Assembly: GCF_021568795.1 (NCBI RefSeq)
Contig: NZ_JAKGUE010000022.1
Span: 1-33,271 of the forward strand
Reading direction: 5' to 3'
From: Dethiosulfovibrio faecalis
GTDB lineage: Bacteria; Synergistota; Synergistia; Synergistales; Dethiosulfovibrionaceae
Length of the DNA stretch: 33,271 nt
Shown here: positions 26,633 through 33,004 of the stretch, piece by piece
How positions within the stretch are numbered: the stretch's first letter is position 1
Layout of the letters: every line of letters begins with the position of its first letter
Notes under the pieces: model-generated
What the model saw: only the letters and a program-made list of their open reading frames with translations
Database searches by the model: none
Told to the model about the DNA's origin: nothing
Position numbers and translations under genes: made by a program

Positions 26633-27229
26633 TCACTGTCTGCGTCCCGTAACCTGTCCCTCCAAAGCGGCGATAGTGTTTTGTACCACGTCGATTAGAG
26701 GAGGCATTTCCTCTCTGAACACAAAGGCGGGAGCGAAAAACTTCCCGGCCTCGAAGGAATCGACCACCAACTCCATCTTTTCAGCCACCTTCTGACGGGC
26801 ATCCTGAAAATCTCCGAAGATACCCTCGTCGGGGGTGCAGCCGAGAAGAGACATACACCTTCCGACGGCGGTAAGCAGCCAGTCCATCCCCTCCATGACC
26901 TGAACCGACAGGTTCATGGCCTGTTCGACCTTCTCCGATTCCAGCATATCCGCCACGGAGAGAGCGCCTTTTCGAACATTGACGACGTATTCTCCGGCGG
27001 ATCCCAAAGTCTGGACGACCAGCTCCTTCACGTCCATGGAGACGAACTCCACCGAGGTCCCCCCCTCGAGGGACACGAAGGCCTCGGGAGACATCTCCAC
27101 GCCGTCCACGGCCACGGAGGCTATCACCCGGTTTTGATCGCTCAAAATAGACGAGATCCTCTCGTAAACCTGAACGTTGTCATCTTCATCTAGGGTCAAG
27201 GGGACCCCGTCGAGCACGATCTTCTCCAT
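26633..27229 (-). CDS. Unrecognised protein, 198 residues
   Basis: I do not recognise this protein. It is acidic and soluble, with no signal peptide or membrane segment. Residues 1-70 (IVLDGVPLTLDEDDNVQVYERI, VIASVAVDGVEMSPEAF, TSVEFVSMDVKELV) alternate short strands with one helix in a way that suggests a small beta-grasp-like domain. Residues 72-198 look all-helical, with two cysteines (GRCMSLLGCTPDEG). Codon use matches the neighbours. The ATG at 27229 has an AGAGGTG site and its own extended -10 promoter, so it is a real gene. It lies between the pse/flagellar genes and the Skp operon. A flagellar or envelope connection is a guess from position. Confidence 0.8.
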   Translation of the reverse strand: MEKIVLDGVPLTLDEDDNVQVYERISSILSDQNRVIASVAVDGVEMSPEAFVSLEGGTSVEFVSMDVKELVVQTLGSAGEYVVNVRKGALSVADMLESEKVEQAMNLSVQVMEGMDWLLTAVGRCMSLLGCTPDEGIFGDFQDARQKVAEKMELVVDSFEAGKFFAPAFVFREEMPPLIDVVQNTIAALEGQVTGRRQ

Positions 27230-27253: not shown

Positions 27254-27269
27254 AAGGCTCGCAAGCCTT
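27254..27269 (-). other. Small hairpin in the leader of the 198-residue gene
   Basis: AAGGCT-TGCG-AGCCTT (minus strand) is followed by TTC. It could be a weak terminator for the pse operon that ends at 27311 or a leader structure of the downstream gene, since it lies after that gene's -10. Confidence 0.35.
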
Positions 27270-27286
27270 AAGACGACTACTTTATC

Positions 27287-27295
27287 ATTATACCA
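27287..27295 (-). promoter_or_regulatory. Extended -10 promoter of the 198-residue gene
   Basis: On the minus strand TGG directly precedes a perfect TATAAT (27292-27287), the TGn extended -10 form, which tolerates the poor -35 (GTAGCA) found upstream. Confidence 0.55.
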
Positions 27296-27310: not shown

Positions 27311-28435
27311 CTACGTATTTTTCAACATATCCTCGATTTTCCTCATAACCCACCCCTGGTCCGACTCGGAGAGCCCCACATATACGGGGAGGGAAATCTC
27401 CATGGAATAAAACCTCTCGGCAACGGGAAAATCTCCGATTGTATAGCCGAAACTCTTTCTATAATAAGGGTGAAGGTGAACCGGAGGATAGTGCACCTGG
27501 ACCCATATACCCTCATCCCTTAGATCCAAAAAGAGCTTTTTCCGAATATCCGCTGAAACCCTGAAGGCGTAGAGATGGTATCCGTGACCGGGATGCCCGG
27601 CCGGTATTACCGCCCCGGGAAGCTCGGCGAGTCGCTCGTCGTATCGTCCGGCCACGGCCCTGCGATAGGAGACGAAGTCGTCCAGTTTTTCAAGCTGGCT
27701 CAACCCCAAAGCGCACTGAAGATCGGTAAGCCTGTAGTTGTAGCCCAGATCGATCATCTCGTTGGACCAAGGTCCCTCGGCGTTTTCCATCTCGCCGGGA
27801 TCCTTGGTTATGCCGTGGGAACGGAAAAGCCTGAGCTTTCGGGCCAGCTCGTCGTCGTCGGTGACGACCGCTCCTCCCTCTCCTGTGGTTATGTGCTTTA
27901 CGGGATGAAAGCTGAAAACCGTCATATCCGCTTCCTGTCCCACCATAAAGCCATCTCTACTAGCGCCCAAGGCGTGGCAGCCGTCCTCCACGACGAGAGC
28001 CCCTACGGAACGGGCCATCTCCATAAAGGGGCTCAACTTCACCGGATAGCCGCTATAGCTTATCGGGGCTATCACCTTCGTCCTGTGAGACAGTTTTTCC
28101 ATGGCCTTTTCGGGATCGAGACATCCGGTTCTCTCGTCTATATCGGCGAAAACAGGGACCCCTCCCTGATAGAGAGCCGCATTGGAGGTGGCGGCAAAGG
28201 TCATGGGAGACGTGAGGACCTCGTCTCCCTTCTCCACTCCGGCGGCGAACATTGCTCCGTGCAATGCGGAGGTACCGTTACTGAAGGTAACGGCGTATCT
28301 ACACCCGACCTTGGCCGCCAGGGCCTTTTCGAAGGACTCCACCGTAGGGCCCTGGGTCAGCCAGTCTCCTCTGAGAACCGAGCAGACAGCCTCTATATCC
28401 TTTTCGTCTATATATTGATGCCCGTAGGGGATCAT
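27311..28435 (-). CDS. pseC: UDP-4-keto-6-deoxy-L-AltNAc aminotransferase PseC
   Basis: This 374-residue DegT/DnrJ/EryC1 aminotransferase has PLP lysine K180 (FSFHPVKHITTGEGG), VVEDGCHALGA with the PLP-ring aspartate D151, SNGTSALHGAM, and C-terminal VQVHYPPVHLHPYY, which is characteristic of PseC. It puts the 4-amino group on the PseB product. It is the last pse gene in transcription order, while pseB is first. The ATG is preceded by a modest GGCGGTG site. A legionaminic-acid or other sugar aminotransferase is less likely given pseB, pseG, pseI and pseF in the same run. Confidence 0.92.
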   Translation of the reverse strand: MIPYGHQYIDEKDIEAVCSVLRGDWLTQGPTVESFEKALAAKVGCRYAVTFSNGTSALHGAMFAAGVEKGDEVLTSPMTFAATSNAALYQGGVPVFADIDERTGCLDPEKAMEKLSHRTKVIAPISYSGYPVKLSPFMEMARSVGALVVEDGCHALGASRDGFMVGQEADMTVFSFHPVKHITTGEGGAVVTDDDELARKLRLFRSHGITKDPGEMENAEGPWSNEMIDLGYNYRLTDLQCALGLSQLEKLDDFVSYRRAVAGRYDERLAELPGAVIPAGHPGHGYHLYAFRVSADIRKKLFLDLRDEGIWVQVHYPPVHLHPYYRKSFGYTIGDFPVAERFYSMEISLPVYVGLSESDQGWVMRKIEDMLKNT

Positions 28436-28464: not shown

Positions 28465-29418
28465 TTATCGAACCATGGAGAGTATGGCCCTGGCCACCCT
28501 CTTCGCTCCGTCGGTGGACACGCAACCGGCAGGAGGGGGGAAGGCCTTTTCTATGGCACCGTGCAGGATTTCGGGGGATACGTCTTTCCACCACCCCAAG
28601 TCGATACCCCAGCCAAGTTCGGACAGGGCCCGTCCTATCCTTCTCTGGTTTTCCGCCACCTGAAACACCACCACCGGTTTGCCGAGTGCCATCGCCTCGT
28701 AACAGGTCACGCTGGAGGTACAGACCACCGAGGAGGCCCTGGCCATCAGTCCGTCGAAATCGGAAGGAGCCCTCATCAGGGTCAATCCGTCCTTCTTATC
28801 AGCCATCCGAGACACCTTATCAAAATAATCGTCCGGCACCATAGGACCCAACACTGCTACCATAGGAGGCCAGGAAACATCGTACCACCGAGCCATATCC
28901 AGTGTCGCCACACCGATATCGGAAGATCCAGCGACAAAGAGAACGAAACCGTCGTCTTTAGGAAGCAGCTCCCGAAAGGACCTTCTAAGCAGACAATACT
29001 TTGGCCCAAGAAGCTTCACGACTTTATCGCCGTATGGAATAGAGTCGGAGTCGACGTTGTAGTTAAGGATAAAATCTGCGTGTCTATCCACAGGGAGATG
29101 GCGAAAATCGTCTACGATCATCAGCTTGGTATAATGTCTAATACCCTCAAGGATCGACGGAGAAAAACGATAGCTGTCGGCGATGACCATATCCACCCCA
29201 TCGAACTGCCCCGGCCTGTGGAGCTCCGAATAAAAGGCAGGGGAGCCAAAATCGGGAAAATCGCCACCGGCGGCCTCGGGTATACAAAAGCGAACCGAGA
29301 AGCCCCCCTCCTCCAAAGAGGCGGCCAAGGCCCTGCACCGGCTGATGTGTCCTCCACCGATGGAGGGACCTCCGTCGGCTAGGATCAGGATATTAGCTAT
29401 AACCTTCTCCAACCCCAA
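28465..29418 (-). CDS. pseG: UDP-2,4-diacetamido-trideoxy-L-altropyranose hydrolase PseG
   Basis: This protein of about 317 residues has a GT-B-like fold and removes UDP from the diacetamido sugar, the step before PseI. Hallmarks are ADGGPSIGGGHISRC with the putative catalytic H24, MVIADSYRF, FVLFVAGSSD and a C-terminal SSVTCYEAMALGKPVVVFQVAENQ with the UDP-binding region. The start is uncertain. The frame has no ATG near the N-terminus: TTG at 29418 or 29412 overlaps the upstream methyltransferase gene by 22 or 16 bases, while family alignment would begin near ANILILADGG. There is no fused PseH acetyltransferase domain at the C-terminus. Confidence 0.88.
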   Translation of the reverse strand: MGLEKVIANILILADGGPSIGGGHISRCRALAASLEEGGFSVRFCIPEAAGGDFPDFGSPAFYSELHRPGQFDGVDMVIADSYRFSPSILEGIRHYTKLMIVDDFRHLPVDRHADFILNYNVDSDSIPYGDKVVKLLGPKYCLLRRSFRELLPKDDGFVLFVAGSSDIGVATLDMARWYDVSWPPMVAVLGPMVPDDYFDKVSRMADKKDGLTLMRAPSDFDGLMARASSVVCTSSVTCYEAMALGKPVVVFQVAENQRRIGRALSELGWGIDLGWWKDVSPEILHGAIEKAFPPPAGCVSTDGAKRVARAILSMVR

Positions 29419-30158
29419 AGCCTAACCTGGCCTTTTAAGCCCAAGGGGGGGAGATCAAGGGCTAGCTTATTTATCGGGGCATCATAAGATGGACTTTTTC
29501 CATCCTCTTTAGCCATCCAAGCATTAATAACCCTGCTCAAAAAATAATAGGTAGAACTAAAGTTCTCTATGAATTCAAGCTTTACCCCAGGGCAATCAAC
29601 GGACTCTATTTCTGAATCAAAAAAGTAGCGGTTATGCCAGGGCTTTTTTATCTCGTCCAAACCTAAAGAGGATCTGAACAGATTAATCTCGTCCAGGCCT
29701 TCAGAGCTGTTTTCGCACATGAGGAAAAGGCCGTCTTTTTTTAGCAAAGAAAATATCTTATACATTGCATCCTTTTGTTCCTCCCAGGAGGGCAAGTTAA
29801 TAAGACATCTCTCGGTATAAATAATATCGTATTTAGGGCTATCTTCGATGGATGCGACATCAGAGACGTAAAACCTAACATCACCGAGAAGATCGGCATT
29901 CTTGATATTTTTATACGCCTCCTTTATCATACCCTCAGAGAAGTCAACTCCACATATGTTCAGCTTGAATTTACTAGCTATCTCCATACAGGTAATACCG
30001 TTACCGCAACCGACATCTAGAACGTCGATTCCATCTCTCATGTACTCCATTATTTTTTTTTCTTCTAGTTTTTTCATTAAAAAATCATTGGAGCCAGCAA
30101 CTTCTCCCATCGAGGATCGCTCTTCCCAAAAATCTCTTATCCTCTGTCCGTCTTTCAT
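29397..30158 (-). CDS. Class I SAM-dependent methyltransferase in the pse locus
   Basis: This 253-residue protein has SAM motif I VLDVGCGNG (46-54), an acidic residue ending the next strand (ICGVDFSEGMI), a DVRFYVSDVASIED segment and IIYTERCLINLP in the motif IV-VI region. The methyl acceptor is unknown; a sugar intermediate, the finished pseudaminic acid or flagellin are possibilities from the location. The gene is visibly richer in A/T and in Lys/Ile/Asn codons than its neighbours, hinting at separate acquisition. The start chosen is ATG at 30158: it overlaps the pseI stop (ATGA) and follows GGGGGAT at good spacing. ATG codons at 30173 and 30182 are alternatives. Its 3' end overlaps pseG. 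Confidence 0.85.
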   Translation of the reverse strand: MKDGQRIRDFWEERSSMGEVAGSNDFLMKKLEEKKIMEYMRDGIDVLDVGCGNGITCMEIASKFKLNICGVDFSEGMIKEAYKNIKNADLLGDVRFYVSDVASIEDSPKYDIIYTERCLINLPSWEEQKDAMYKIFSLLKKDGLFLMCENSSEGLDEINLFRSSLGLDEIKKPWHNRYFFDSEIESVDCPGVKLEFIENFSSTYYFLSRVINAWMAKEDGKSPSYDAPINKLALDLPPLGLKGQVRLWGWRRL

Positions 30159-31189
30159 ATAAACATCCCCCATAATAACCATTCATCTTTCTCTATATCG
30201 TTCTTTGCCGTCCTGCCAATTACATTTTTCTTGTGTTTTGAGAATATCCCATAGCCAGGTCTTTTGCAGGTTAACATGTCCTCTGTTATCACAGTTCCTG
30301 CTGGAATATCGCAAGAGGCATGTAAGCTCCTTCTGCCCTTCTCGTAAAACTCCATCTCCTCTTCGGAAGGGCCTAGCTTCCTGCCGTCTCCCATGGCGGA
30401 CTCCACGTCCCTGATCTGACGGACCAGCTCCTTTAGCTCCCCTGGCTCTATGGCAAAGGGATGGTCCGGTCCCTCCATGGACCTGTCCAAGGTGAAGTGT
30501 TTCTCCACGACGGAGGCCCCCATAGCCACGGCGGCCACGGAAACGTGGACCCCGGGGGTGTGGTCCGAAAGCCCCACAGCGGTGCCGAAAGCCCTACGGA
30601 TGGTCTCCATGGACCGGAGGTTCATTATATGGGCCGGAGCAGGATAGACTGAGGCACACTGGAGAAAGATGACCTGCTCGTTTCCGGCGTTGCGACAAGT
30701 GATGTAGGCGTCCTGTATCTCCTCCATGTTGGCAAGGCCAGTGGATATTATCATAGGCTTGCCTTTTGAGGCACAGTAGCCCAGCAGATCTAGGTCCACT
30801 ATCTCGAAGGAGGCGATCTTGAAGAAATCGCTCACCTCGTCCAACTCGTTAACAGCCTTATGGTCAAAGGGAGTGGCAAAAAAGAGGATGCCCTTTTCCT
30901 TGCAGTAGGAGGCCAAGCCAGGAAGCCAGTCCCTTGGGGTCTCTATCTCCGATATGAGGGTATGGAGATCTTTGTTGTAGCTGGAGTGAACCGGTGTTTT
31001 TTTAGAAAAAAGAGTATCAGCCGAGTATATCTGAAATTTGACCGCATCAGCCCCAGCCTCGACAGCGGCGTCTATGTGTCGTAAGGCCAGGTCGTAGGAA
31101 CGATTGTGGTTCGCCCCTACCTCCGCTATTATGAAGCAGGGGTGTTTTTCGCCTACAGGCCTTCCTGCCATGAGTATAGAGTCCGTCAT
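30155..31189 (-). CDS. pseI: Pseudaminic acid synthase PseI (NeuB family)
   Basis: This 344-residue enzyme condenses 6-deoxy-AltdiNAc with phosphoenolpyruvate. An N-terminal NeuB barrel shows FIIAEVGANHNRS, AGADAVKFQIYSADTLF, FFATPFD, IISTGLANMEEI, GLSDHTPG and VVEKHFTLDRSMEGPDHPFA (metal His). A C-terminal SAF/antifreeze-like domain (about 285-342) contains RRSLHASCDIPAGTVITEDML and KRPGYG. NeuB, LegI and PseI are similar; PseI is chosen because pseB, pseC, pseG and pseF surround it. The ATG follows AAGGAGG. Confidence 0.9.
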   Translation of the reverse strand: MTDSILMAGRPVGEKHPCFIIAEVGANHNRSYDLALRHIDAAVEAGADAVKFQIYSADTLFSKKTPVHSSYNKDLHTLISEIETPRDWLPGLASYCKEKGILFFATPFDHKAVNELDEVSDFFKIASFEIVDLDLLGYCASKGKPMIISTGLANMEEIQDAYITCRNAGNEQVIFLQCASVYPAPAHIMNLRSMETIRRAFGTAVGLSDHTPGVHVSVAAVAMGASVVEKHFTLDRSMEGPDHPFAIEPGELKELVRQIRDVESAMGDGRKLGPSEEEMEFYEKGRRSLHASCDIPAGTVITEDMLTCKRPGYGIFSKHKKNVIGRTAKNDIEKDEWLLWGMFI

Positions 31190-31215: not shown

Positions 31216-31917
31216 TTACTCTTCGTTTTTTTTCTCTATCATACGGAATATCTGCTCTGCCCTTTTCCAGTCGTCCAACGTGTCTATGTCTTGAACTCTC
31301 CAGGACGGCAATATGACGGGCCTGGCGTTTCGGCTGAAGAAGAGGGGGCCCTCTTCTGGCATCTCCGATACGTTCAGCCAGTAAAACTGCCCCGCATCAT
31401 GGTATGCCTCCGGCAGATCCTGCGATCTCGAGGACTGGTATTCCGGCCAGATCATCTCCACATGGCCGCCCTTGGAGAGCTTCAATCCACGGTATATTGG
31501 ATATTCGAAGGGGGTGACGGAGAAGGAGGATACCGCTCCCTCTTCGCAAACTTTTTCATATCCTTTTGTTATATCCTCTGCCTGTACGAACGGGGCCGTG
31601 GCGTATATACAGCATATATGGGTGACGATGTCTCCTCGTTTTTCATGCCATTCCAGGCAGTGACGGACGACCGCATCGGTTCCGGTATGGTCGTCCGATA
31701 GTCTTTCCGGACGGATAAAGGGAACTTCGGCACCGTAGGAACGAGCTACGTCGGCTATTTTTTCGTCATCCGTCGAGACTATCACCTTGTCGAAAAGACC
31801 TGTTTTCACAGCGGCCTCTATGGAGTAAGCCATTATCGGTTTGCCCCAAAATGGTCGTATATTTTTACCCGGTATTCTCTTGCTTCCCCCTCTGGCGGGG
31901 ATCAGGGCTGTTATCAT
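31216..31917 (-). CDS. pseF: Pseudaminic acid cytidylyltransferase PseF
   Basis: This 233-residue CMP-sugar synthetase activates the nonulosonic acid with CTP. The N-terminal LIPARGGSKRIPGKN (5-19) is the nucleotide-binding motif, followed by FDKVIVSTDDEKIADVA, SDDHTGTDAVV and DAGQFYWLNV. The C-terminal WRVQDIDTLDDWKRAE is typical of the PseF/NeuA group. The ATG is 8 bases after pseB with a weak ribosome site, implying coupling. Confidence 0.92.
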   Translation of the reverse strand: MITALIPARGGSKRIPGKNIRPFWGKPIMAYSIEAAVKTGLFDKVIVSTDDEKIADVARSYGAEVPFIRPERLSDDHTGTDAVVRHCLEWHEKRGDIVTHICCIYATAPFVQAEDITKGYEKVCEEGAVSSFSVTPFEYPIYRGLKLSKGGHVEMIWPEYQSSRSQDLPEAYHDAGQFYWLNVSEMPEEGPLFFSRNARPVILPSWRVQDIDTLDDWKRAEQIFRMIEKKNEE

Positions 31918-31925
31918 TTTACACT

Positions 31926-33004
<1,079 letters not shown>

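Follow-up and report, generated by a model that had tools for sequence, protein, structure and literature searches.

INTRODUCTION

What does a small, conserved gene contribute at the end of a flagellin glycosylation locus? The question is raised by a reading frame in the window (the whole 33,271-nt stretch of Dethiosulfovibrio faecalis DNA analysed here, contig C22 of genome G000), which encodes a 198-residue protein, protein X. The gene lies where the original prediction placed it, between flagellin glycosylation (pse) genes and a Skp/OmpH-like gene. From the place of its gene and its partner, its size and fold, and its homology to proteins encoded beside maf, protein X is probably a GlfM-type accessory factor of Maf, a flagellin glycosyltransferase.

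This reading would give a function to a family outside the coverage of Pfam and NCBIfam, and it can be tested as a prediction on the transfer of pseudaminic acid, a sialic-acid-like sugar, in Synergistota, a subject on which literature searches returned no study among the matches listed. Section 15 of PMC13317340 states that, to form a ternary complex with flagellin, Maf-2 depends on the GlfM encoded with it, and a passage of PMC12645811 states that no sequon is known for the choice of flagellin sites by Maf.

RESULTS

A conserved gene outside the named families

The reading frame starts with ATG, and its product is 95–96% identical to relatives in the two closest genomes, 53–58% identical in four more congeners and about 30% identical in other families. 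Because conservation is graded in this way, the sequence comparisons indicate a genuine conserved gene. Protein X matched no family in Pfam or NCBIfam, even at an E-value of 10, and its single match in PHROGs had an E-value of 0.19. Pfam searches with 22 relatives gave scattered weak matches only (best E-value 0.0056), and sequence searches of the PDB with protein X and its relatives gave weak matches only. The earlier statement that no family is recognised consequently holds for Pfam, NCBIfam and PHROGs. The protein is nevertheless not the orphan that it had been called: alignment A2 found relatives in 92 of 185 Synergistota genomes (38 of 62 by genus), counts in which related genomes are not independent, and relatives also occur in Bacillota. 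A single-sequence search found relatives in 19 of 41 near genomes.

Table 1. Features of the window around the protein X gene, with the evidence for each
Feature	Position	Strand	Evidence
CDS of protein X, GlfM-like, 198 aa	26633..27229	-	Open reading frame and conservation; full-length homology to Maf-adjacent Bacillota proteins
N-terminal beta-grasp (ubiquitin/ThiS-like) domain, residues 1-66	27032..27229	-	AlphaFold models; Foldseek match to ThiS 3cwi
C-terminal four-helix bundle, residues 67-198; helix 4 with F169, R172, E173, E174, P177	26636..27031	-	AlphaFold; column counts
Extended -10 element TGGTATAAT, likely promoter of the protein X gene	27287..27295	-	Shuffle count; upstream in six of seven genomes of the genus; no -35 match
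pseC, pseudaminic acid pathway, neighbour of protein X	27311..28435	-	NCBIfam TIGR03588 above cut-off
pseG-like gene	28465..29418	-	TIGR03590, 100.9 bits, below cut-off of 153.55
pseI/neuB-type synthase gene	30155..31189	-	PF03102, 286.7 bits, above cut-off; TIGR03586 and TIGR03569 below theirs
pseF	31216..31917	-	TIGR03584 above cut-off
pseB	31926..32951	-	TIGR03589 above cut-off

Neighbouring genes and upstream region

Upstream of the protein X gene and on the same strand lie pseB, pseF, the pseI/neuB-type gene, a methyltransferase gene, the pseG-like gene and pseC (Table 1). The methyltransferase gene (29397–30182) replaces the pseH-like acetyltransferase gene seen at this place in the near genome G001, which hints that the pseudaminic acid derivative may not be the same. 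The Skp/OmpH-like gene lies downstream (Skp match with an E-value of 3.7e-8, under the curated cut-off). It is near X in all six congener stretches and in none of 12 stretches from other families, and therefore looks incidental.

G001, whose protein is 96% identical to protein X of the window, has the whole island as one run on one strand, flgL-fliW-maf-fliC-flaG-pseB-pseF-pseI-pseH-pseG-pseC-X; here, Maf and flagellin were labelled by Pfam, most pse genes by match to those of the window, and flgL, fliW, flaG and pseH by reading of the sequence. The window ends at a contig break, and the maf end of the run sits on contig C21 of the same assembly, with flgL- and fliW-like genes.

The original prediction also gave the gene its own extended -10 promoter. 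The word TGGTATAAT is present 57 nt before the ATG, inside the 81-bp gap after pseC, and such words occur twice in the window when 0.18 are expected (100 shuffles, one of which had two). It precedes the X gene in six of seven genomes of the genus, where the alignment leaves these words out of register; in the seventh (G006), the 200 nt upstream of X do not contain it. A consensus scan upstream of X found no two-hexamer sigma-70 site and no -35 match. The word itself is confirmed, and we regard TGGTATAAT as a likely promoter element, judging from its sequence. The second copy of the word (29127–29135, plus strand) falls inside the pseG-like gene, in the opposite orientation. Between the -10 word and the ATG, the 5' leader contains an inverted repeat, AAGGCT-TGCG-AGCCTT (27254–27269, minus strand), in which one stem base changes to give a G-T pair in two near genomes. 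The repeat is a possible terminator or leader structure.

Predicted structure

We predicted the structure of protein X with AlphaFold (eight rows; mean pLDDT 91.1), and the model consists of a beta-grasp domain followed by a four-helix bundle with helices at residues 67–97, 101–128, 136–160 and 165–194. The N-terminal part modelled alone had a pLDDT of 89.7. DSSP of both models gave the strand-strand-helix-strand-strand-(short helix)-strand order of the ubiquitin/ThiS beta-grasp, the last strand of which runs into the helical bundle. The beta-grasp-like N-terminus and helical C-terminus proposed earlier are therefore borne out by the models. Profile and structure-based searches, which had been suggested as a check, gave no named family; Foldseek matched the N-terminal part to ThiS and ubiquitin-like proteins (best 3cwi, E-value 1.8e-3, TM-score 0.52), a match of fold only. 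A fold search with the whole model returned many unrelated generic helical bundles and says little. Some relatives, in Acetomicrobium and its kin (L017–L019 and L088–L091), lack the beta-grasp and consist of the four-helix part only.

Distribution in Synergistota and linkage to flagellar genes

The 92 Synergistota genomes with relatives comprise 86 with the canonical form, among them G084 with a short and weak match (44 bits), and six with a divergent form only. Canonical X is found in 85 of 137 flagellated genomes and in one of the 48 others, counting a genome as flagellated when at least one of FlhA, FliD and FliS was matched; G058 has X and no match to any of the three. A broader alignment, applied to the 52 flagellated genomes without X, added one (G096), leaving 51, of which 41 belong to genus g5. 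Members of this genus (for example, G073 and G109) are flagellated, have no strong Maf match and, except for G084 and G096, have no X. Their FliD open frames are mostly 1,000–2,000 codons long.

In 31 genomes, no more than 6 kb separates canonical X from fliD. The 86 canonical places divide into these 31, five that share a contig with fliD but are far from it, 28 whose fliD is on a different contig and 22 without a usable FliD row; distances were taken from rows among the matches listed, in the genomes with X plus four without (G020, G022, G031 and G036), with second halves of split matches and other rows excluded. When paralogues are counted, 37 places lie within 6 kb of a FliD match, the additional six being divergent paralogues in the window genus. 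Three genomes of the deep family f11 share the order flagellin, FlaG-like, fliD, X, HAD gene, SpsF-like, NeuB and aminotransferase genes (labels read from the sequence; FliD and NeuB also by family search).

The proximity to fliD in 31 genomes, the occurrence in 85 of 137 versus one of 48 genomes, the G001 island and the f11 gene order all support the flagellar link of the original prediction, and the gene-neighbourhood check that accompanied it ties X to flagellar genes (fliD, flagellin and maf) in other genomes. As to the proposed flagellar or envelope factor, the flagellar half stands and the wording is too vague, since the evidence points to Maf-dependent flagellin glycosylation.

A divergent paralogue beside fliD

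A second, divergent copy of X lies beside fliD in six of the seven genomes of the window genus; in the window genome, it is found on contig C2 (L038, 9157–9753) beside fliD and a YbhN-like gene (PF03706). In six further genomes of the family, all without flagellar markers, a divergent copy is the only one, and the YbhN-like gene adjoins it in all three of the neighbourhoods read. The six paralogue rows form one clade (100/100) in a midpoint-rooted tree. It seems that the copy linked to fliD diverged and that the one in the island retained the conserved sequence, a direction that we infer.

Co-occurrence with Maf

Maf was scored by a PF01973 match of at least 100 bits (57 genomes; 66 of 185 are over the curated cut-off). 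By this measure, 55 of the 185 Synergistota genomes have both X and a strong Maf match, 32 have X only, two have Maf only and 96 have neither. Consequently, X is present in 55 of the 57 genomes with strong Maf. Nine genomes with MptE-like matches under 60 bits only, above the Pfam cut-off, were not counted as Maf; X is present in three of them (G096, G112 and G113), and adding all nine raises the genomes with both from 55 to 58 and those with Maf only from two to eight. A search with PF20157, the Maf N-terminal domain, was uninformative, as it found no match in 35 genomes nor in control genomes.

The 32 genomes with X and without strong Maf argue against a strict dependence on Maf. Many are incomplete, but FlhA, FliD and FliS are all present in five whose completeness is 92% or more (G062, G115, G117, G119 and G120). 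The two genomes with Maf and, even in the broader search, no X (G045 and G070) are both 82% complete. The same comparison with strong NeuB matches (about 190 bits or more, 71 genomes; full tally 104 of 185) gave 58 genomes with both, 29 with X only, 13 with NeuB only and 85 with neither; 25 of the 32 genomes with X and no strong Maf also have no strong NeuB.

Where both genes are on one contig, Maf lies 10.5–20 kb from X in four of four congeners. Outside the window genus, the distance is 114 kb to 1.2 Mb in nine of ten one-contig pairs and 29 kb in the tenth.

Relatives beside Maf in Bacillota

Scanning the contigs of named genomes with the single protein X found no relative, and scanning them with a closer alignment (A3) found eight loci, including Bacillus methanolicus and Anoxybacillus rupiensis. 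In these two species, relatives of 117–120 aa are encoded between two Maf-type genes, downstream of flagellin in B. methanolicus, where both Mafs match PF01973, and upstream of a pseB-like gene in A. rupiensis. A profile built from the two had matches in 34 of 249 Bacillota genomes. Among the best 30 of the 34, with the query excluded, Maf is present in the flanks (about 1.5 kb) of 26 of 29 loci and FliD in those of seven of 29; the loci without Maf in their flanks are L109, L121 and L125, and L103 and L104 are identical. A search of plasmids for these relatives gave a single hit, in an unannotated Acetoanaerobium record.

We compared the Synergistota family (19 rows) with 30 Bacillota proteins (those of 29 of the 30 loci, the one containing N being left out, and the Anoxybacillus protein) and found that the two profiles align over 193 columns with an hhalign probability of 99.76% and an E-value of 1.7e-27 (single comparison). 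Control profiles scored 0.27% (FliS, nine sequences) and 0.26% (FliT-like, five sequences) against the X family. The Bacillota relatives are 101–234 aa long; 16 of 30 have the two-domain size (at least 185 aa), and the other 14, at 101–126 aa, have no room for the beta-grasp domain. The earlier description of protein X as lineage-specific falls because Bacillota carry the same two-domain protein beside Maf. In six of the Bacillota loci (L107, L114, L116, L122, L127 and L128), fliD is separated from the maf-adjacent GlfM-like gene by a gene of 72–98 aa, helix-turn-helix-like by eye.

Helix-4 positions, phylogeny and Maf length

In the joint alignment, position 169 (window numbering) is Asp in all 30 Bacillota rows and in all three f11 rows (from three of the four f11 genomes) and in none of the 32 Synergistales rows, where it is Tyr (11), Phe (10), Leu (7), His (2), Gly (1) or Gln (1); the window has Phe169. 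Among the columns listed, this is the only Asp shared by every Bacillota and f11 row. At position 163, Asp is found in 29 of 30 Bacillota rows and all three f11 rows; Synergistales rows mostly have Lys (20) or Arg (9), with Lys in the window. All 32 Synergistales rows have Arg at position 172, and Y81, G114 and W117 are near-invariant in all groups. In the midpoint-rooted tree, which has long branches, f11 groups with Bacillota (100/99), apart from Synergistales.

Maf open frames are 605–618 codons long in f11 and mostly 828–1026 codons long in Synergistales, which therefore have a C-terminal extension. Maf of the window genome (L140, 263–2977, on contig C21) has 904 residues and a Pfam match over residues 216–388 only (MptE-like); its C-terminal extension has no Pfam match and is without a counterpart in the shorter f11 Maf. 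The missing helix-4 Asp could be a real functional change, to judge from the alignment columns, and its covariation with Maf length rests on few independent lineages.

DISCUSSION

Alternative functions

FliT and FliS are small proteins that form helical bundles, and in many bacteria their genes lie close to fliD. Protein X could be a secretion chaperone of this kind for FliD or flagellin, a four-helix bundle with a beta-grasp extension and no tie to glycosylation. The predicted bundle, the position of canonical X near fliD in 31 genomes and its retention in flagellated genomes without a strong Maf match would all suit such a role. However, FliS occurs in 124 of the 185 genomes, elsewhere than X, and a FliT-like gene follows in the loci read. 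The 11 matches to PF05400 are weak, none is over the cut-off, and all are on FliS contigs. The profile comparisons with FliS and FliT-like proteins (0.27% and 0.26%) also speak against a chaperone, as does the setting in Bacillota, where the relatives are beside Maf in 26 of 29 loci and FliD in only seven of 29. We therefore consider the chaperone unlikely, and we reject the identification of X as FliT itself on the separate FliT-like genes and the profile mismatch.

An envelope or polysaccharide factor that works with the YbhN-like membrane protein (LPG_synthase_TM), its flagellar link being one of neighbourhood only, is less probable again. This proposal draws on the YbhN-like gene, often with an isoprenylcysteine-methyltransferase-like gene, that follows X in many Synergistales (by eye; PF03706 confirmed for one), and on the six relatives without flagellar markers that keep a divergent copy, with a YbhN-like neighbour in the three neighbourhoods read. 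Yet canonical X is nearly confined to flagellated genomes, and those without flagellar markers have the divergent paralogue only, with the exception of G058. Moreover, the window copy, the three f11 copies and those Bacillota copies that were read all have no YbhN-like neighbour. A role for X in regulating the expression of pse or flagellin genes, instead of partnering a transferase, would be consistent with a small two-domain protein that has its own likely promoter, but X matches no DNA-binding or sensor family in Pfam or NCBIfam, and the adjacency to Maf and co-occurrence with it would need another reason. We give this last proposal very little credence.

A probable GlfM-type factor for Maf

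The reading of protein X as a GlfM-type accessory factor draws on computed evidence, namely gene linkage, co-occurrence with Maf, full-length homology in Bacillota and the predicted four-helix bundle behind a ubiquitin-like domain. Under this reading, the bundle would dock flagellin and Maf in a ternary complex in the cytoplasm, and Maf would then transfer CMP-pseudaminic acid, which the adjacent pse genes would supply, to chosen serines and threonines of flagellin before export. The beta-grasp domain may act as an extra docking module. FliD is possibly a second client, as the fliD link suggests, and X perhaps has a Maf-independent second role at FliD. In Synergistales, the bundle would have been rewired, with Tyr, Phe or Leu in most rows in place of the helix-4 Asp, and with an invariant Arg three residues further along. 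We tentatively propose that this rewired GlfM (Asp to mostly aromatic or aliphatic, with the new invariant Arg) accompanies the C-terminally extended Maf, and that, where flagellated genomes have lost Maf, it may also act on FliD or cooperate with a different transferase; this extension is a good deal less certain than the GlfM-type role itself. The family follows Maf across two phyla; with its ubiquitin-like domain and its two charge versions, it is a natural experiment on acceptor recognition.

Comparison with known systems

Protein X resembles FliT and FliS in being a small helical bundle from the vicinity of fliD, and differs from them in having no profile similarity to either, both of which exist separately in these genomes.

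GlfM, in work attributed to Unay, Kint and Viollier (Curr Biol 34:2932, 2024), is reportedly a four-helix bundle, and an invariant aspartate is said to be needed for its function with Maf-2. Protein X is likewise small and encoded in the same island as Maf, flagellin and nonulosonate genes, and it has a four-helix bundle, predicted in X and reported for GlfM. Congeners with both genes on one contig have X and maf in the same island in four of four cases, and 26 of 29 Bacillota relatives are encoded beside Maf. The two genes are not adjacent in the 10 further one-contig pairs of Synergistota, nor in the Synergistota neighbourhoods read from beyond the window genus. Protein X has an N-terminal beta-grasp domain, possibly a point of difference from GlfM, and is without the helix-4 Asp of its Maf-linked relatives. 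Because of this Asp difference, and because the likeness is one of partner, location, size and fold rather than of direct sequence comparison with GlfM, protein X is best read as a GlfM-like variant and not as a proven member.

The Maf-adjacent Bacillota proteins (for example, L092 of B. methanolicus, L107 and L114) are homologous to protein X over the whole length and have the near-invariant Y81, G114 and W117 in common with it, but carry Asp at position 169 in 30 of 30 cases and at position 163 in 29 of 30, where protein X of the window has Phe and Lys.
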